From Pigmentiphaga sp. NML080357 (GTDB lineage Bacteria; Pseudomonadota; Gammaproteobacteria; Burkholderiales; Burkholderiaceae_B), in contig NZ_NINW01000038.1 in the NCBI RefSeq assembly GCF_002188465.1, forward strand, positions 62,001 to 126,000: a stretch of 64,000 bases of DNA. Reading direction: 5' to 3'. Of this stretch, positions 21,035 through 30,628 are shown piece by piece. A program made the position numbers and the translations under genes. The notes under the pieces are model-generated. The model did not search any database. It had not been told where the DNA came from and saw only the letters and a program-made list of their open reading frames with translations. Within the stretch, counting starts at the first letter, position 1. Each line of letters opens with the position of its first letter.

Positions 21035-21532
21035 TTAGTCGAAGTCATCGAGGTCGTCGATGTCCACGCCGCGCAACACCTGCCGGATGGTGTCCTGGCC
21101 GAAGCCCCGGGACATCAGGAAACGCACCTGCTTGGCACGCTGGCCGGCATCGGCGGGCAGTTGGCCGAAACGCTTGCGCCAGACCTCGCGCGCACGAGCC
21201 AGTTCAGTGGCCTGGAGGTTGCTGCGCAATTCGGAGATCTGGGCGTCGGCCACGCCATGCTGGCGCAACTCGCGCAGGATGCGCAGCGTGCCCTGCTTGG
21301 CGGCCAGCCTGTGCACTACGCTCTGCGCATAGCGCTGAGTGGACAGCCAGCCTTCCTTCTCCAGGCTGTCCAGCACCGCGCGGACCTCGTCTTCCTCGCC
21401 GAAACGGGAGAGCTTGCGCCCCAGCTCCACACGGCTGTGTTCGCGCCGGGACAAATAACCTACCGCTCGGGCCTTCAGCGACGGCCCGGAGGCAGGCTTG
21501 CCATCGTCATTCGTCTTCAAGCTCTTCGGCAA
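21035..21532 (-). CDS. recX: regulatory protein RecX
   Basis: Inhibitor/modulator of RecA filaments, 165 residues. RecX repeats are visible: [39 protein letters not shown] and [18 protein letters not shown]. The best start is a TTG at 21532 inside the end of recA (26-base overlap). The two ATGs at the recA stop are out of frame, so expression should be low and coupled to recA. Confidence 0.92.
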
Positions 21533-22577
21533 CGCTGCCGCCGACCCGTGCCGTGACGCCCAGGCTGTCGCGCACGCGGTTTTCGATCTCGATGGCCATT
21601 TCGGGATGTTCCTTCAGGAACTCGCGCGCGTTGTCCTTGCCCTGGCCGATGCGCTCGCCGCCATAGCTGAACCAGGAACCGGACTTCTCGACGATGCCGG
21701 CCTGCACGCCCAGGTCGAGGATCTCGCCCTCGCGCGAAATACCCGCGCCGTACATGATGTCGAACTCGGCGCTCTTGAACGGCGGCGACACCTTGTTCTT
21801 GACGACCTTGACGCGCGTTTCGTTGCCGACGACCTCGTCGCCCTTCTTGATGGAGCCGGTACGACGGATGTCCAGCCGGACGGAGGCATAGAACTTCAGC
21901 GCGTTGCCGCCGGTGGTGGTTTCGGGGTTGCCGAACATGACGCCGATCTTCATCCGGATCTGGTTGATGAAGATGACCATGCAGTTGGTGCGCTTGATCG
22001 AGGCGGTGAGCTTGCGCAGTGCCTGGCTCATCAGGCGGGCCTGCAGACCCGGCAGGGAGTCGCCCATCTCGCCTTCGATTTCGGCCTTGGGCACCAGGGC
22101 CGCGACCGAGTCGATGACGATGAGGTCGACCGCGCCGGAGCGCACCAGGGCATCGGTGATTTCGAGGGCCTGCTCGCCGGTGTCAGGCTGCGAGATCAGG
22201 AGGTCGGTGAGGTTGACGCCGAGCTTGGCGGCGTACTGGACGTCGAGCGCGTGTTCGGCGTCGATGAAGGCGCAGGCGCCGCCCAGCTTCTGCATTTCGG
22301 CGATGACCTGCAGCGTGAGCGTGGTCTTGCCGGACGACTCCGGGCCGTAGATCTCGATGACGCGGCCACGGGGCAGGCCGCCCACGCCCAGCGCGATGTC
22401 CAGGCCCAGCGAACCGGTGGAGACGACCTGGATGTCGTGCTCGACTTCGTTGTCGCCATAACGCATGACCGAGCCCTTGCCGAACTGCTTTTCGATCTGG
22501 GACAGCGCGGCGGCCAGGGCCTTGGTCTTTTCGGTCTGGGCGGCGGCGGCGGCCTTGGAAACTTTGGTGTCGTCCAT
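21507..22577 (-). CDS. recA: recombinase RecA
   Basis: Strand-exchange ATPase and SOS co-protease, 356 residues. It has the Walker [11 protein letters not shown], the L2 region [21 protein letters not shown], and the acidic C-terminus ending VAEELEDE. A LexA box lies 46-61 bases upstream. recX follows with overlap. Intact. Confidence 0.99.
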
Positions 22578-22695: not shown

Positions 22696-23682
22696 CTAAT
22701 ACCCTGCCCGCGCGTAAGGATTGGTCCCCCGCCGGTACACCATCAGCGCGCGCCGGTAGCGGTTGACCATCTCGCCGCGCTGGTTCCGCGCCTCGGTCAG
22801 CACCGTCACCACGCCCTGATCGGGCCGCGAACCGGACAGGCGCGTCCCCTCCACGGTAGACCTCGCCTCCAGCGTGTCGCCCGGCATCAGGTCGGCGCCG
22901 AATTCCACGTCGGTCCAGCCGAGGTTGACCGTGACCCGGCCGAAGGTCCGGGTGGACAGCGCCACCGCCACCGCGATCCCCCAGGTCTGGGGCACGGCGG
23001 GCGCGGGCAGCCCCAGCGCCTGCGCGAACGCATGGTCGTGGCTCTGGGGCTGCCACTCCATCGCCCGCAGGGCATGCAGCGTGGCTTCCTCGGCCAGCAG
23101 GGTCTTGCGCGGGCTGTGGACGAAGGTCTCGCCTTGCCGCAGGTCTTCGAAGAACAGCCCCGTCTGTTCGACCCAGGCGCCGTCGTCCCTGCGCGCGTGC
23201 GAAAGAAACCGCTCCTCGGTGGCGGCCGACGCGCCGGCGACGGCGTCGGGCCCCGCGGCGCCGTGCCACAGCTCGACCACGTAGCGCAGTTCGGCCACCT
23301 GCTCGCCGCGCTGGTTGAAGCCTCGCGTGAGCAGGCTCGCGCGGCCCAGGTGCGCGTCCACGGGCCCGGTCCCCAGCACTTCGGTCTCGGCGTACAGAGT
23401 ATCGCCGCCGAACATGGGCCGGGTCAGCGCGATGCTGGACATGGACACGATGCGCCGGCGGCGGCCGAAGGTCTTGGCCGTCATGCCGACCAGCCGCTGC
23501 AGGGTCAGCGTGCTGACCATCAGCGGCCGCTTCCAGTCCGTCAGCCCGGCGTAGCAGTCGTCGTAGTGCACCATGGCCGAATTGACGGAATCCAGGGCTT
23601 CCTGCACGTTGTCCTGCTGCGAGAAGGTGAGGCCGGGACGGTGGACGAAGCGCTGTCCCGCGGCCACGCTGCCCGAGGTCAT
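22696..23682 (-). CDS. double-hotdog MaoC-type enoyl-CoA hydratase (possibly 5'-damaged)
   Basis: A 328-residue protein with two hotdog domains. The first half has AGQRFVHRPGLTFSQQDNVQ and MVHYDDCYA, the second FFEDLRQGETFVHSPRKTL and a C-terminal GWTDVEFGADLMPGDTLEA. This resembles mesaconyl/itaconyl-CoA hydratase-like MaoC proteins. The start is uncertain. The ATG at 23682 has no purine-rich ribosome site upstream, because the sequence before it is the interior of a truncated Bug gene on the other strand. The gene probably lost its promoter and perhaps its first codons in a deletion, so it may be silent. Confidence 0.75.
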   Translation of the reverse strand: MTSGSVAAGQRFVHRPGLTFSQQDNVQEALDSVNSAMVHYDDCYAGLTDWKRPLMVSTLTLQRLVGMTAKTFGRRRRIVSMSSIALTRPMFGGDTLYAETEVLGTGPVDAHLGRASLLTRGFNQRGEQVAELRYVVELWHGAAGPDAVAGASAATEERFLSHARRDDGAWVEQTGLFFEDLRQGETFVHSPRKTLLAEEATLHALRAMEWQPQSHDHAFAQALGLPAPAVPQTWGIAVAVALSTRTFGRVTVNLGWTDVEFGADLMPGDTLEARSTVEGTRLSGSRPDQGVVTVLTEARNQRGEMVNRYRRALMVYRRGTNPYARAGY

Positions 23683-24235
23683 CGCCCAGTTGAAGTCGCA
23701 TCCGGGCAAATTCAGCTACGGCTCGCCGGGGACGGGATCCACCAGCCACCTGAGCATGGAAGTGTTCAAGCAGCTGGCCGGCGTGGACCTGGTACACGTT
23801 CCCTACAAGGGCAGCGCACCGGCGCTCACCGACCTGATCGGCGGTTCGATCAAGCTCATGATCGACGCGCTGCCCAGCGCCTTGCCGCAGGTCAAGTCCG
23901 GCCGGGTCCGCGCGATTGCGATCACCAGCAGCAGCGAACCTTCCACCATCGTTCCGGAGATTCCCCTGGCCAGCGCTGCCGGCCTTTCGGGCTTGCCGGG
24001 CCGCGCCTGGTACGGGATGTTCGCGCCCAAGTCCACGCCGCCCGCCGTGGTGGCCAAGATCGTGGCCGACGTGGGAAGCGTGCTGCAGTTGCCGGAGATC
24101 GCCGCCAAGCTGCCCCAGCTGGGTCTGGAAGCGGTCAAGCCGATGACGCCGGAAGAATTCGGCCGTTTCCTCGACAAGGAAACGGCGTACTGGGTCGACG
24201 CCACGCGCCGCACGGGCATGTACCAGATCGAATAG
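23665..24235 (+). pseudogene. Bug receptor gene lacking its 5' part
   Basis: The readable homology starts abruptly at LPEVIAQLKSHPGKFSYG, roughly residue 140 of a normal Bug protein, and continues to a normal C-terminus (about 188 residues). HVPYKGSAPALTDLIGGSIK and the usual C-lobe are intact. The signal peptide, the N-lobe and any promoter are missing. Open frame extends left to 23573 but that part is antisense to the MaoC gene and has no Bug similarity. The break coincides with the start of the divergent MaoC gene, as expected from one deletion that joined the two genes. Confidence 0.8.
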
Positions 24236-24313
24236 CGGTAGTGACGAGGCCATCCGCCTGAGGGAAAATGCCGGGGAAACCGGGATGCGTTACCCCGACG
24301 CTACAATTCCTCC

Positions 24314-25003
24314 ATGCGTATCCTCATCGCCGAAGACGACAACATCCTTGCCGACGGCCTGTCCCGCTCGCTGCGCCAGAGCGGCTATGCGGTCGATGCC
24401 GTGCATGACGGACTCGAGGCGGACTCCGCGCTGGCGGCACAGCCCTTCGACCTGCTGATCCTGGACATCGGCCTGCCGCGCCTGTCCGGCACCGAAGTGC
24501 TGCGGCGCCTGCGGGCCCGCAACTCGCACATGCCGGTGCTCATACTGACGGCGGCCGACAGCGTGGAACAGCGCGTCAAGGGCCTGGACCTGGGCGCCGA
24601 CGACTACATGGCCAAGCCCTTCGCCCTCTCCGAGCTGGAGGCGCGCGTACGCGCGCTGACCCGGCGCGGCGCCGGCGGCGGGCCGGCCGTGCTGCGCCAT
24701 GGCCGGCTGACCTTCGACCAGGTGGGCCGGGTCGTCACCATCGACGACCAGGTCGTGGAACTGTCGGCGCGCGAAGTCAGCCTGCTCGAAGTCCTGCTGT
24801 CGCGCAGCGGCCGCATGGTCAGCAAGAAACAACTGGTGGACCATCTGTGCGAATGGGGCGAGGAAGTCAGCACCAACGCCATCGAGGTCTACGTACACCG
24901 CCTGCGCAAGAAACTGGAGCCGGGCGACGTCAAGATCGCCACCGTGCGCGGCCTCGGATACTGCCTGGAGCGCGAACCCGGCGCCCACAGCGGCGCGGGC
25001 TGA
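24314..25003 (+). CDS. OmpR/TctD-type response regulator
   Basis: A 229-residue two-component regulator. Its receiver domain has the acidic pocket EDD at 7-9, phospho-acceptor Asp51 in LLILDIGLPRL, and the Lys of DDYMAKPFAL. The C-terminal winged helix includes ELSAREVSLLEVLL and VYVHRLRKKL. It lies 16 bases before a TctE-like kinase, directly after the remnant Bug gene, which fits a TctCDE/BctCDE-like arrangement in which a Bug receptor signals to the kinase. Confidence 0.93.
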   Translation: MRILIAEDDNILADGLSRSLRQSGYAVDAVHDGLEADSALAAQPFDLLILDIGLPRLSGTEVLRRLRARNSHMPVLILTAADSVEQRVKGLDLGADDYMAKPFALSELEARVRALTRRGAGGGPAVLRHGRLTFDQVGRVVTIDDQVVELSAREVSLLEVLLSRSGRMVSKKQLVDHLCEWGEEVSTNAIEVYVHRLRKKLEPGDVKIATVRGLGYCLEREPGAHSGAG

Positions 25004-25019: not shown

Positions 25020-26471
25020 ATGGACGACGACCGCAAAGGGCTGCCGCCCGTCCCGGCCATCGAGCGGCCGGCCCGGTCGCTGTTCGGCGAGATCCTGGAC
25101 TGGATGCTGGTCCCGCTGTTCTTGCTCTGGCCGATCAGCGTCGCCATCACCTACGTCGTGGCCCAGTCGATCGCGGTCGCTCCCTATGACCGGGGCCTGG
25201 CCAACAACGTGCTGGCCCTGGCCCAGCAGATCAAGGACGTCAACGGGCGCGCGCGCCTGCAGTTGCCGGTTTCCGCGCGCGAGATGCTGCGCGCCGACGA
25301 GACCGACAGCGTGTTCTACCTGGTGCTCGGCAACCGCGGCGAATACCTGGGTGGAGACCGCGAGCTGCCCCTGCCCTCGCTGGAGCGTCCGCTCCCCGGC
25401 ATCGTGCAGTATCGCGACGACGTGATGCGCGGCTTTGCCGTGCGCGTGGCCTATACCTGGGTGGCGCTGCCGACCTCGCCCGGCGCGCAGCCGGCGCTGG
25501 TGCAGGTGGCCGAGACGCTGGAGAAGCGCTCCCAACTGGCCAACGAAATCATCAAGGGCGTGATCCTGCCCCAGTTCGTGGTGCTCCCCCTCGCCGTGGT
25601 GCTGGTGTGGTTCGGCCTGTCGCGCGGGATCGCGCCGCTGGGCAAGCTGCAGGAGCGGCTGCGCGCCCGCCGTCCCGATGACCTGTCGGCCATCGACGAA
25701 CGGGAAGTGCCGCAGGAGATCGCCCCGCTGGTGCGCGCCATGAACGAGCTGCTGCAACGCCTGTCGGCCAACGTCGCGGCGCAGAAGCGCTTCGTGGCCG
25801 ACGCCGCCCACCAGATGAAGACGCCGCTGGCCGGCATCCGCACGCAGGCCGAACTGGCGCTGCGCAATGCCAGCCCGGAAGACATGGAAGCCAGCCTGCG
25901 GCACCTGATCTCCGGCGCCGAGCGCGCTACCCGACTGGTCAACCAATTGCTGGCGCTGGCGCGGGCAGAAGACACCGGCAGCCAGGTCGACACCTCGGTC
26001 CGCGTCGATCTGCAGGCAATTGCCAGCGAGCAGACGCAGAACTGGGTGCACGAGGCGATGGAACGCCGGATCGACCTCGGCCTGGAGGGCCCGGAGGCGC
26101 CGGTCGAGGTCGTAGGCAACGCCCTGCTGCTGGCCGAGCTGATCAACAACCTCATCGACAACGCGCTGCGCTACACGCCCGGCGGCGGCACCGTCACCGT
26201 GCGCGTGACGCAAGACGACCATGGCGCCACGCTGGACGTCGAAGACTCCGGCCCGGGCATCCCGGCCGAGGAACGCGAACTGGTGTTCGACCGCTTCTAC
26301 CGCATCCTCGGCTCGAATGCCGAGGGCAGCGGGCTCGGACTGGCCATCGTTCGCGAGATTGCGCAGCGCCACGGCGCCACGCTGTCGGTCTCGGACAACC
26401 CGCAGAGCGCAACGCCGGGCATGCCGGGCACGCGCATCAGCGTGCGTTTCCCGCCGGCGGCGGCAAGCTAG
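25020..26471 (+). CDS. TctE-like sensor histidine kinase
   Basis: A 483-residue inner-membrane kinase. Two transmembrane segments (around residues 22-45 and 180-202) flank a periplasmic 2CSK_N-type domain. The H-box FVADAAHQMKTPLAGI carries phospho-His264, followed by the N-box INNLIDNALRYTPGG and the G1/G2 boxes DSGPGIPAEERELVF and GSGLGLAIV. It partners the response regulator 16 bases upstream. In the TctE/BctE family the periplasmic domain is triggered by a Bug receptor; the adjacent Bug gene is broken, so the input may be lost or supplied elsewhere. Confidence 0.93.
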   Translation: MDDDRKGLPPVPAIERPARSLFGEILDWMLVPLFLLWPISVAITYVVAQSIAVAPYDRGLANNVLALAQQIKDVNGRARLQLPVSAREMLRADETDSVFYLVLGNRGEYLGGDRELPLPSLERPLPGIVQYRDDVMRGFAVRVAYTWVALPTSPGAQPALVQVAETLEKRSQLANEIIKGVILPQFVVLPLAVVLVWFGLSRGIAPLGKLQERLRARRPDDLSAIDEREVPQEIAPLVRAMNELLQRLSANVAAQKRFVADAAHQMKTPLAGIRTQAELALRNASPEDMEASLRHLISGAERATRLVNQLLALARAEDTGSQVDTSVRVDLQAIASEQTQNWVHEAMERRIDLGLEGPEAPVEVVGNALLLAELINNLIDNALRYTPGGGTVTVRVTQDDHGATLDVEDSGPGIPAEERELVFDRFYRILGSNAEGSGLGLAIVREIAQRHGATLSVSDNPQSATPGMPGTRISVRFPPAAAS

Positions 26472-26483
26472 GGCGCACGCGCC

Positions 26484-27587
26484 TCAGAACCGCACGCCGG
26501 CCTCCCGCGCCGCCATGTCGTAGAGCGCGCGGCGCATGAGCAACCCCGGCTTGTCGGGCGCGAAGTTCAGGTCGAACTGCGGCTCGGCGTCGTGCGTCAC
26601 CACGTCCAGTATCCATTCCAGCGCATCGACGTCCTCCAGGTAGGCCTTGGCCGAGGCCTCGTACAGGTAGGCGTCGGCGGCGGGATCCTGGAGGTTGGAA
26701 TCGCGGCTGTTGAACCACCAGTAGTGGATGCTGCCGTTGGTTTCCGGGGTGAAGGCATGGGTGATGTTGAAGCGATAGGTGCGCGGCTTGCCGGCGGGGT
26801 CGTGGTTGTCGACGATGCGGGCGAAGGCCACGTGCAGGCCCGGCGACGCGAAACGCGCCTCCGAATAGCGGTCCACAGGCTTGCCGGTCAGGCCCGTGGG
26901 CACGCCGTACACGTCGGGCGGCGGCGAATTCTTCAACGCCCGGTCGATGATGACCACGTCGCCTTCCTGGCGCACGTCCAGCTTGCTGCGCGCGTACTCC
27001 GGCGTGCCGATCGCGCCGGGATGCAGGAAGGGAAAGTGCGTCTGGTCCAGCAGGTTCTCGTGCATGGACACATAGTCGGCCTTCATGTGGAACGTCCCTC
27101 CCACGCTCTTCCAGTCCGGGCTGGCGAGCCAGCTCGTATCGGGGATCAGCGCCTGGTCGGCGTGGTCGGGGTCGCCCATCCATATCCAGACCAGCGGCGC
27201 ACGTTCGACGATGGGATAGCTGCGCACCTGGGCGTTGGTCGGCACGAGCGGCATGGACGGCATCTTCACGCAGCGGCCCGATGGATCGAATTGCATGCCG
27301 TGGTAGCCGCACATCAGCACGTCGCCGTCCAGGCGCCCCTTGGCGAGCGGAAAGGAACGATGCGGGCACCGGTTGCGGACCGCCACCGGCTCGCCGGCCT
27401 GGGTGCGGTACAGGGCCACGTCCACGCCCAGGAAGCGGCGGCTCCTCAGCTCCCGCGTGATTTCGCTGGAGAGGCCGGCGACGTACCAGCAGTTGCGCAC
27501 CAGCGGCGTGGCATGGTCGGCGAACCCGCCCGGCTCGAAATGGAAGTCGGTCCGTAGTTCGGGGATGGGATCGGCTATGCGGTTCAT
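26484..27587 (-). CDS. Rieske non-heme iron oxygenase, VanA-like alpha subunit
   Basis: A 367-residue terminal oxygenase. The Rieske centre is visible as Cys-X-His (CPHRSFPL) and Cys-X2-His (MCGYHGMQF). The mononuclear-iron site is in the ENLLDQTHFPFLHPG helix. ATG 27587 is chosen; an upstream start would run into the reductase gene. It is the last gene of a Bug receptor, reductase, oxygenase operon. Likely reaction: O-demethylation or hydroxylation of an aromatic acid, as in vanillate demethylase; the substrate is unknown. Confidence 0.9.
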   Translation of the reverse strand: MNRIADPIPELRTDFHFEPGGFADHATPLVRNCWYVAGLSSEITRELRSRRFLGVDVALYRTQAGEPVAVRNRCPHRSFPLAKGRLDGDVLMCGYHGMQFDPSGRCVKMPSMPLVPTNAQVRSYPIVERAPLVWIWMGDPDHADQALIPDTSWLASPDWKSVGGTFHMKADYVSMHENLLDQTHFPFLHPGAIGTPEYARSKLDVRQEGDVVIIDRALKNSPPPDVYGVPTGLTGKPVDRYSEARFASPGLHVAFARIVDNHDPAGKPRTYRFNITHAFTPETNGSIHYWWFNSRDSNLQDPAADAYLYEASAKAYLEDVDALEWILDVVTHDAEPQFDLNFAPDKPGLLMRRALYDMAAREAGVRF

Positions 27588-27618
27588 ATGCGACACGCTC
27601 CTGAAAAGGTTCGGATGG

Positions 27619-28596
27619 TCAGGCATCGAGCACCAGGCGCGTTCCGCGGAGCCTGGACACGCAAATGCAAAGGGTGTGGCCGGCGGCGCGCTCTTCTTCG
27701 CTCAGATAGCGATCGCGGTGATCGATGGGACCGTCGGCGGAGACGACCGGCAGCGGGCACAAACCGCACTCGCCCCGCGCGCAGTCCCACAGCACGGGCA
27801 CGTCGGCCAGCCGCAAGGCGTCAAGGATGCTGGCGTCGGGACCTACCTGGACGAGCTTGCCGGAACGGCGCAACTCGACCTCGAAGGCGGTTTCGTCGCT
27901 GGCGGGCCCGGCGGCGAACAATTCGCTGCGCACCCGGTCGGGTTCCCATCCGAGGTCGGCCCCCGCCTGGCGCGCCGCCGCGATCATGGGCGCGGGGCCG
28001 CACACGTATGCGCGGGTGTCCTCAGGCTGGGAAGCGAGCAGGCCTCGAAGGTCCAGCACGCCTTCCTCGTCGCTATGGTGAAAGCGGACACGGTCGCCGG
28101 CCAACCGCGCGAGGGTGTCGCGATAGGCCATGAACGCCGCGTTGCGGCCGGCGTACACCACGCTGTAGCGGCAGCCGCGGCGGGCCAGGCTGCGCGTCAT
28201 GGACACGATGGGCGTCACGCCTATGCCGCCGGCGATCAGCAGCGTGGAGGCGTCTCGCCGGTCCAGCGGGAAGTCGTTTACCGGCGGCGAGATCCGCAGC
28301 CGGGTGCCGGGCTCGAAGGTATCGTGGATGAAAGCCGACCCGCGTGCGCGGTCTTCGCGCTGCACGGCGATGCGATAGACGTGGCGCGGGTCATCCTCGC
28401 CGGCCAGTCCCCCGATCAGCGAATAGTGCCGCACGATGGGCCCGCGCGTGTCCGACACCATGTGCAGCGCCACGTGCGCTCCCGGCTCGTAGCGCGGCAG
28501 GGGCCGGCCGTCCGCGGCTGCAAGGAGGTATTCCCTGATGCGCGGCGTCAGCGTCCGGATGCCGGCGACCACTACGTCGATGTACTTGCTTGCCAC
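27619..28596 (-). CDS. VanB-like flavin/[2Fe-2S] oxygenase reductase
   Basis: A 325-residue phthalate-dioxygenase-reductase-type electron carrier. It has the N-terminal flavin domain (RHYSLIG), the NAD domain (LLIAGGIGVTPIVSM and VCGPAPMI), and a C-terminal plant-type ferredoxin (CARGECGLC plus a later CIC). It delivers electrons from NAD(P)H to the Rieske oxygenase encoded 31 bases downstream. It lies 21 bases after the Bug gene in the same operon. Confidence 0.93.
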   Translation of the reverse strand: MASKYIDVVVAGIRTLTPRIREYLLAAADGRPLPRYEPGAHVALHMVSDTRGPIVRHYSLIGGLAGEDDPRHVYRIAVQREDRARGSAFIHDTFEPGTRLRISPPVNDFPLDRRDASTLLIAGGIGVTPIVSMTRSLARRGCRYSVVYAGRNAAFMAYRDTLARLAGDRVRFHHSDEEGVLDLRGLLASQPEDTRAYVCGPAPMIAAARQAGADLGWEPDRVRSELFAAGPASDETAFEVELRRSGKLVQVGPDASILDALRLADVPVLWDCARGECGLCPLPVVSADGPIDHRDRYLSEEERAAGHTLCICVSRLRGTRLVLDA

Positions 28597-28617
28597 AAAG
28601 CCACTCCTGTGCGGGCA

Positions 28618-29601
28618 TCAGTCCAGGCGGATGTCCGCGCCTTTGATGATCGGCCCCCACTTGGCGATTTCCTCGTCCACCAGGCGCGCCATGTCGCGCG
28701 GCGGCATCGTGTAGGGCTCGTAAGTGAAAGTCGCGAGTTTCTCGAGCACGTCGGGAGCCTTGAGCGCAGCGGCGATGCCCTGGTTCAGGCGCTGCACGAT
28801 GTCCACCGGCGTGCCCTTGGGGACGAACAGGCCGTTCCAGCCGCCCACTTCATAACCCGCCGGGCCGCCGGCCTGCGCCACGGTCGGCACCTGCGGATAG
28901 CCGGGCAGGCGCTGCGGCGCCGCCACGGCGAGGAAACGCACCTTGCCCGCCTGGTAGACCGGGCCGGCCGACACGGGCGTGCCCAGCGTCCAGTCCACGT
29001 CGCCCACCGCCACCGATTGGTACAGCTGGGCCGATTCCTTGTAGGGAACGTGCATCATGCTGGTGCCGGTGGCCGACTCCAGCAGCAGCCCGCCTAGATG
29101 CGCGGGGCTGGCGATGCCCCAGGAGCCGTACGACACCTGGCCGGGCCTGGCCTTGCCGGCCGCGACCAGGTCGGCGAACGTGCGCCACTTGGACCCGGCC
29201 GGCACCACCACGAAAAAGTAGTTCTTGACCAGCGGCGTGACGGGGTCGAAATCCTTGCGCACGTCGTAGGGCAGCTTGGCGAACAGATGCGGCTGCGTGC
29301 CCACGTGGTAACTGTCCATGTGGACCAGGGTGTAGCCATCCGGCGCGGCGCGCTTGCCGGCCTCGAACGCGAGGAAGCCGCTGGCGCCGGGGCGATTCTC
29401 CACGATCACCTGCTGGCCCAGCGAGGCGGTGAGCTTTTCAGCCACGATGCGCAGCAGCACGTCCGGCCCCTGCCCCACCGCAAAGGGTGTGACGATCTTC
29501 ACCGGCCGGCCGGGATAGGCGGGCGCGGCGGCGGTGGCGGAACCCGCCGCCGCGACCAGGACGGTCGCGGCGAGCAGGCGCGCGATCAGCGATGTCGGCA
29601 T
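28618..29601 (-). CDS. Bug-family solute receptor
   Basis: A 327-residue periplasmic receptor. The leader MPTSLIARLLAATVLVAAAG ends at ATAAAP. Family motifs include TPFAVGQGPDVLLRIVAEKL, VIVENRPGASGF, DGYTLV and HVPYKESAQLYQSVAVG. The start has AGGAGA 7 bases upstream. First gene of the operon that continues with the reductase and oxygenase, and divergent from a LysR gene. Confidence 0.92.
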   Translation of the reverse strand: MPTSLIARLLAATVLVAAAGSATAAAPAYPGRPVKIVTPFAVGQGPDVLLRIVAEKLTASLGQQVIVENRPGASGFLAFEAGKRAAPDGYTLVHMDSYHVGTQPHLFAKLPYDVRKDFDPVTPLVKNYFFVVVPAGSKWRTFADLVAAGKARPGQVSYGSWGIASPAHLGGLLLESATGTSMMHVPYKESAQLYQSVAVGDVDWTLGTPVSAGPVYQAGKVRFLAVAAPQRLPGYPQVPTVAQAGGPAGYEVGGWNGLFVPKGTPVDIVQRLNQGIAAALKAPDVLEKLATFTYEPYTMPPRDMARLVDEEIAKWGPIIKGADIRLD

Positions 29602-29665
29602 GTTCTGTCTCCTCTTGCCCCTGGGGTCTTGCCGCGGGCCGATGGCCCGCTTGTGGGAGAGGATT

Positions 29666-29679
29666 TTATTGAGGAATAA
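29666..29679. promoter_or_regulatory. LysR-type dyad in the bug-lysR gap
   Basis: TTATT-GAGG-AATAA is a perfect dyad in an AT-rich stretch of the 130-base divergent region. It lies 66 bases before the lysR start and 65 before the bug start, and fits the T-N11-A pattern. Confidence 0.4.
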
Positions 29680-29731
29680 TGGAGAATATTTGTTCAAAAA
29701 ATAGCAATCAGTAAGCTCGATCTGGAATAAA

Positions 29732-30628
29732 TTGGACGCCATCACCCAGCTACGAACCTTCACCACCGTCGTCGCCTGCGGCGGGTTCTCGGAAGCCGCC
29801 CGGCAGATGAATGTCGTGCCGTCCGTGGTGGCCAAGCGCATCCGGCAACTGGAGGCCACCGTGGGGGCGCGGCTGTTCGAGCGGACCACGCGCACGGTGC
29901 GCCTGACCGAGGCCGGCGAGAAGCTCCATGCCCGCGCGGGCGTGCTGGTCGCCAGTTTCGAGGACCTCGTGCAGAGCGTGGAGCGGGACGCCAGCCAGCT
30001 GGTCGGGCATCTGCGGGTCGCTACCCCCACCACCCTGACCACGGTCCGCCTGGGGCCGATCTTCAACGCCTTCCTGCGCCGGCACGATCGCATCACCATG
30101 GAGATCTCGCTGGTCGACCACTCCACCAACCCGGCCGAACGGGACTACGACGTGGCCATCAGCGGCCGGCCCGCCAGCTACGAAGGCGTGGTGGAAATCC
30201 CGCTGTGCCCGGTCGACGCCCTGCTTTGCGCCGCTCCCGCCTACCTGCGGCGGCACGGGCGGCCGCGCCACCCCCAGTCCCTGACCGAGCACGCCTGCCT
30301 GGTTTTCAAGCCGTCCGGCACGGCCTGGCATTTCCGCAGCGCCAAGGGCGGCATCAGCGTGGACATTCCGCCGCGCCTGGTGGCCGACGACAACCTCACG
30401 CTGCGCGACGCGGCCGTGTCGGGCCTGGGCATCGCCGCCCTGCCCGCCTATGTCGCCCACGAGGCGCTGGCAGCCGGTACGCTGGAGGCCGTGCTCGACG
30501 ATTTCCCGTTGCAGGAGACCTGGTTCAAGGCCTACGTGCCGCGCCGCAAGCAGCACGTCGCCCGGGTCGCCGCGCTGGTCGAATGGCTGGCGCAGCACCT
30601 GCGGCCCGACGCGCCGGCCGAAAGCTAG
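29732..30628 (+). CDS. LysR-family regulator of the Bug/Rieske operon
   Basis: A 298-residue regulator. The DNA-binding domain (QLRTFTTVVACGGFSEAARQ, PSVVAKRIRQLEATVGARLFER) and co-inducer domain (RVATPTTLTTVRLGPI, GIAALPAYV) are standard. It starts with TTG; no ATG fits the expected N-terminus. Divergent from the bug-reductase-oxygenase operon, which it probably activates. Confidence 0.9.
   Translation: MDAITQLRTFTTVVACGGFSEAARQMNVVPSVVAKRIRQLEATVGARLFERTTRTVRLTEAGEKLHARAGVLVASFEDLVQSVERDASQLVGHLRVATPTTLTTVRLGPIFNAFLRRHDRITMEISLVDHSTNPAERDYDVAISGRPASYEGVVEIPLCPVDALLCAAPAYLRRHGRPRHPQSLTEHACLVFKPSGTAWHFRSAKGGISVDIPPRLVADDNLTLRDAAVSGLGIAALPAYVAHEALAAGTLEAVLDDFPLQETWFKAYVPRRKQHVARVAALVEWLAQHLRPDAPAES

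Follow-up and report, generated by a model that had tools for sequence, protein, structure and literature searches.

The itaconate degradation clusters of P. aeruginosa and C. necator, in which the ict, ich and ccl genes are accompanied by mcd and by mmgE/PrpD, are among the closest described counterparts of the operon considered here, and in C. necator a gene for a TTT-type binding protein lies nearby (PMC12290011). A second point of comparison is the bctCBA-bctDE citrate system of Bordetella, whose Bug protein BctC signals through the neighbouring BctDE (PMC5812351). The operon that we describe in Pigmentiphaga resembles the former in uniting a CoA-transferase, a MaoC-type hydratase and a CitE-type lyase, and the latter in the position of a Bug gene beside a two-component pair of the TctD/TctE type. 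It differs from the P. aeruginosa and C. necator clusters in that it carries neither an acyl-CoA dehydrogenase nor an MmgE/PrpD gene, that it possesses a GntR/UTRA regulator, that its MaoC protein is a fused double hotdog, and that its enzymes score below the equivalog cut-offs; unlike the Bordetella system, moreover, it has no tctAB membrane genes seen adjoining it in Pigmentiphaga, and tctDE is tied to recA throughout the family. A further likeness is to the ripABC genes for itaconate degradation of Yersinia pestis, the lyase and the hydratase coming closest, among named families, to the RipC-like and RipB-like ones, whereas the CoA-transferase sets the two apart, that of Pigmentiphaga being of the CaiB/class III type. 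RipA belongs to another CoA-transferase family.

Pigmentiphaga sp. NML080357 is a human clinical isolate whose draft genome was assembled with SPAdes from short reads into 59 contigs (PMC5543643). The genome (G000) comprises 5,734,860 bases with an estimated completeness of 100%, and its genus, placed in the Alcaligenaceae, is a soil and environmental one occasionally found in patients; the organism is not the Bordetella that the sequence-only reading had taken it to be. The window, i.e. the whole stretch of 64,000 nucleotides analysed (Table 1), was compared on the basis of sequence with ten other Pigmentiphaga genomes, one per species (G001-G010, of which G005 is P. litoralis, 5.5 kb of it being identical to strain KCTC 22165, and G010 is fragmented, with 3.6 Mb in 340 contigs). 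We consider it highly probable that an operon, most likely of catabolic role, lay between recA and tctDE, and that one deletion of ~3.46 kb subsequently reduced it to two pseudogenes.

Table 1. Features of the NML080357 locus, in window positions except for the window itself
Feature	Position	Strand	Basis or remark
Window	G000:C59:62001-126000		231 kb contig
recA, ancestral neighbour of tctDE	21507..22577	-	recA-tctD gap 130-400 bp, 43 family genomes
Double-hotdog MaoC hydratase remnant (RipB/Ich-like)	22696..23682	-	NF038241 188 bits; half-vs-half alignment, upstream sequence
Deletion junction	23663..23667	.	Ungapped comparison, both flanks vs G002, G004, G007, G008, G009
Bug/TctC solute-binding protein remnant	23664..24235	+	PF03401 profile positions 88-263 only
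TACAAT box, putative tctDE promoter element	24302..24307	+	Pigmentiphaga alignment
tctD-like response regulator, intact, outside deletion	24314..25003	+	PF00072, PF00486; dN/dS ~0.05
tctE-like sensor kinase, intact, outside deletion	25020..26471	+	PF08521, PF00512, PF02518

The proposal, made from the letters of the window alone, that a deletion scar joins a MaoC gene to a Bug gene, with loss of both 5' ends and of the promoter region, is borne out by the alignment to relatives that had been recommended as a check. In seven of the ten other genomes (G002, G003, G004, G006, G007, G008 and G009) the two flanks of the window lie 3.4-3.6 kb apart in an intact syntenic version, and the segment between them includes the promoter region together with the 5' parts that MaoC and Bug lack in the window; such a spacing, with the missing genes in between in seven genomes, is far beyond chance. 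Against the five closest congeners (G002, G004, G007, G008 and G009) the window lacks 3,455-3,462 bp. The intact loci (L028-L034) carry MaoC, CitE, GntR and CaiB genes in this order on one strand, after which come a divergent promoter region and the 5' end of Bug, and what has been deleted between MaoC and Bug amounts to three whole genes, those for the HpcH/CitE lyase, the GntR/UTRA regulator and the CaiB (class III) CoA-transferase. The head-to-head arrangement first described accordingly holds for the remnants in the window but not as an ancestral adjacent pair, since three genes lay between the two. A search for the lost segment across the rest of the genome did not find it, the only matches being those of its Bug part to other Bug genes, and its translocation is thereby rejected.

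In the ungapped alignment, bases of the left type run through 23663 and those of the right type start at 23664, with a CA at 23665-23666 common to both flanks and a weaker CC.GC match, likewise common to both, at 23657-23661; with respect to the congeners, homology on the MaoC side ends at about 23663-23676 and that on the Bug side begins at 23657-23664. Inspection of the breakpoints, also suggested beforehand, hence reveals microhomology of at most 2-5 bp and no trace of an insertion sequence. Deletion mediated by an insertion sequence is rejected because none is found at the junction and the flanks run straight into one another, as is recombination between long repeats, because only 2-5 bp at most are common to the flanks; illegitimate recombination appears to be the simplest reading of the junction. 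Given that a single genome of the species of NML080357 was compared, the deletion may be strain-specific.

The longest MaoC frame occupies 22696-23709 of the minus strand and its nearest ATG stands at 23682, where the start had been expected. The encoded protein lacks the first 24 native residues of a MaoC that in the intact G008 operon comprises ~345, and six chance residues, MTSGSV, stand in their place. The predicted want of a ribosome site is confirmed as well: upstream of the ATG at 23682 (AATTTGCCCGGATGCGACTTCAACTGGGCG) no Shine-Dalgarno sequence is present, while in the intact gene a TTGGAG stands a few bases 5' of the ATG, with nothing similar in the window. In the alignment to single-domain homologues the lost residues correspond to the first strand; they belong to the N-terminal half, the one in which the N-x4-H motif of such homologues is conserved and persists in the remnant. 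In the C-terminal half a serine replaces the histidine of this motif. The truncated MaoC could be translated at a low level. On the plus strand, Bug similarity indeed starts in mid-protein, near 23664 as compared with the 23665 first proposed, the match to the PF03401 profile beginning at position 88, whereas the intact Bug of G008 matches positions 2-266. The N-terminal loss of about 140 residues claimed for Bug is therefore real, but its extent, measured as the offset against intact relatives, is ~135 codons, equivalent to the signal peptide and ~110 mature residues. At least 40 other places in the genome match the stretch of the Bug remnant at the DNA level, which makes the lost receptor a member of a large family.

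As regards the site itself, 43 of the 81 genomes sampled in the family show matches to recA and tctD separated by 130-400 bp, and in P. litoralis (L036, L153) and G001 (L152) the two genes adjoin directly, without an intervening operon. Of the ten Pigmentiphaga genomes aligned, nine, P. litoralis among them, have a TACAAT box ending 6 nt before the ATG of tctD (G003 has TAGAAT), and it is at this box that homology to the operon-less species begins. From the recA-tctDE adjacency and the TACAAT box, the operon seems to have been added in Pigmentiphaga, in the space separating recA from tctDE; tctDE appears to have its own upstream element, and its presence at the recA site would predate that of Bug. 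Loss of the tctDE promoter is not supported, as the TACAAT box is retained and is also present in the operon-less P. litoralis. The further claim that the deletion removed a likely receptor of the TctDE-like system stands in so far as Bug has been destroyed, but it does not stand as an ancestral pairing, because recA and tctDE adjoin without Bug in 43 genomes; a conserved linkage of Bug to tctDE was found neither in these family genomes nor in P. litoralis or G001. By analogy with the bct system, a functional link between Bug and tctDE may nevertheless exist in the species with the operon, though not as the ancestral role of tctDE. The placement of the TACAAT box relative to the tctD ATG (window 24302-24313 for box and spacer) suggests a transcription start at or very near the tctD start codon and thus a leaderless message. 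On the tctDE tree P. litoralis has G006 as its sister; since G006 possesses the operon, P. litoralis may have lost it cleanly.

The operon probably breaks down small branched acids. The intact lyase of G008 is nearest to NF038242 RipC_Ccl, with 204.5 bits, which is below the equivalog cut-off of 375 bits; the MaoC of the window is nearest to NF038241 RipB_Ich, with 187.8 bits, again below the cut-off of 340 bits; and CaiB falls among the succinyl-CoA:mesaconate and succinate:glutarate transferases, also below the curated equivalog cut-off. With all three enzymes below these cut-offs any substrate is a tentative assignment, although the genes for CoA-transferase, hydratase and lyase do occur together in the intact loci, as in operons of the ict/ich/ccl type. 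CaiB is, furthermore, 55-60% identical to CaiB proteins that other genera of the family encode next to GntR and CitE genes, and several of these clusters also hold acyl-CoA dehydrogenase and MmgE/PrpD genes, a layout which is that of the characterised itaconate/methylsuccinate cluster (PMC12290011). A C5 dicarboxylate such as itaconate would be our best guess for the substrate, a guess about equally likely to prove right or wrong. A literature search combining Pigmentiphaga and itaconate found no paper.

In the course of events that we propose, the operon would have reached its place between recA and tctDE in the lineage of Pigmentiphaga and, while intact, would most likely have enabled the cell to take up and degrade a small branched dicarboxylate, for example itaconate: Bug would bind the dicarboxylate, the CoA-transferase would activate it, MaoC would hydrate it and the lyase would split the product into acetyl-CoA and pyruvate, with GntR controlling expression. 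A single deletion of ~3.46 kb by illegitimate recombination would then have taken away the genes for the lyase, GntR and CaiB, along with the promoter region and the 5' ends of the genes on either side, the outcome being two head-to-head pseudogenes, MaoC and Bug, with tctDE and recA untouched.

NML080357 is not alone in having lost part of this operon. In G010 a different deletion, of ~3.58 kb, affects it (L035:880-980, on G010:C133, the scar lying 0.9 kb from the contig end): relative to the scar in the window, it reaches ~200 bp deeper into MaoC on the left, and on the right it ends ~90 bp (~30 codons) further upstream in Bug. The two genomes are sisters on the tctDE tree with moderate support (83/83), and the deleted state consequently forms one group, as would be expected if the operon had been inactivated once in their common ancestor and the dead DNA later trimmed differently in each lineage. 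We regard this as unlikely, because the ends of the scars differ and additional deletion by itself could turn neither scar into the other, NML080357 keeping MaoC sequence that is lost in G010 and G010 keeping Bug sequence that is lost in NML080357. Over the codons retained in both genomes, moreover, dN/dS is 0.12 (0.07-0.18) for MaoC and 0.18 (0.11-0.28) for Bug, values that are not near 1, and the shared retained frames contain no stop; selection would therefore have acted on both genes during most of the period that followed the split of the two lineages. On this sequence comparison, two separate losses are most likely the better reading. That these independent losses in sister lineages were favoured in some setting, as repeated adaptive loss and not mere drift, is a doubtful and quite improbable extension of that reading; if true, possible settings would be life in association with a host, or the presence of other C5-acid operons that make this one redundant.

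The remnants in the window, which we infer to be dead, carry no further stops or frameshifts, and their pairwise dN/dS values of 0.08-0.18 are near those between intact copies, from which it follows that the loss is recent on the scale of species divergence; old pseudogenes are rejected on the same grounds. With purifying selection still evident, the loss in G010 looks recent too. Since the selection signal fits a recent loss, the designation as pseudogenes rests on truncation and not on decay. The same open frames and purifying selection, together with the N-x4-H motif retained in the N-terminal half of MaoC, might be taken to mean that the remnants are kept for a function, be it as a truncated hydratase expressed from a new promoter or as a cytoplasmic Bug fragment. 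This is very improbable, however, with the ribosome site, the signal peptide, the first strand of MaoC and the partner enzymes all gone, and a recent deletion accounts equally well for the open frames. An assembly or sequencing artefact, conceivable in one short-read SPAdes draft of 59 contigs (PMC5543643), is an extremely remote prospect given that the junction is interior to a 231 kb contig with both flanks syntenic with relatives, that none of the other contigs of a genome estimated to be 100% complete contains the missing segment, and that the flanks have no long repeat in common that could collapse.

The deletion in NML080357, which we thus read as a genuine and separate event, is an ordinary recent gene loss, unusual only in that a second, different deletion is found in a sister lineage, and because gene deletions of this kind are common its general interest is limited. 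It does offer a resolved case of gene loss, with breakpoints placed within ~5 bp, the exact lost gene content and two separate scars in sister lineages, and it identifies the recA-tctDE neighbourhood as a family-wide arrangement into which a catabolic operon came to lie in Pigmentiphaga.

NML080357 retains other CaiB-CitE operons. One of them (L132) includes homologues of the acyl-CoA dehydrogenase and MmgE/PrpD genes, and another (L130:5900-13700, on G000:C1) encodes an IclR-like regulator, a MaoC hydratase, a CitE lyase and a CaiB CoA-transferase, along with two Bug proteins, a flavin-reductase-like protein and two class I fumarase-type subunits, the gene names in the latter case deriving partly from reading the translations; to judge from its layout, its substrate may be mesaconate or an acid related to it. 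Some catabolic capacity may remain by way of these two operons, and since both are kept, the substrate of the lost operon may have been a different acid. The next-best CaiB in the genome is only ~33-37% identical to the lost one. Within the window, beyond tctE, tandem frames for a Rieske-type oxygenase and a reductase (26484-29900), named from their translations, resemble a vanillate demethylase pair, and another Bug gene lies upstream of them on the same strand.
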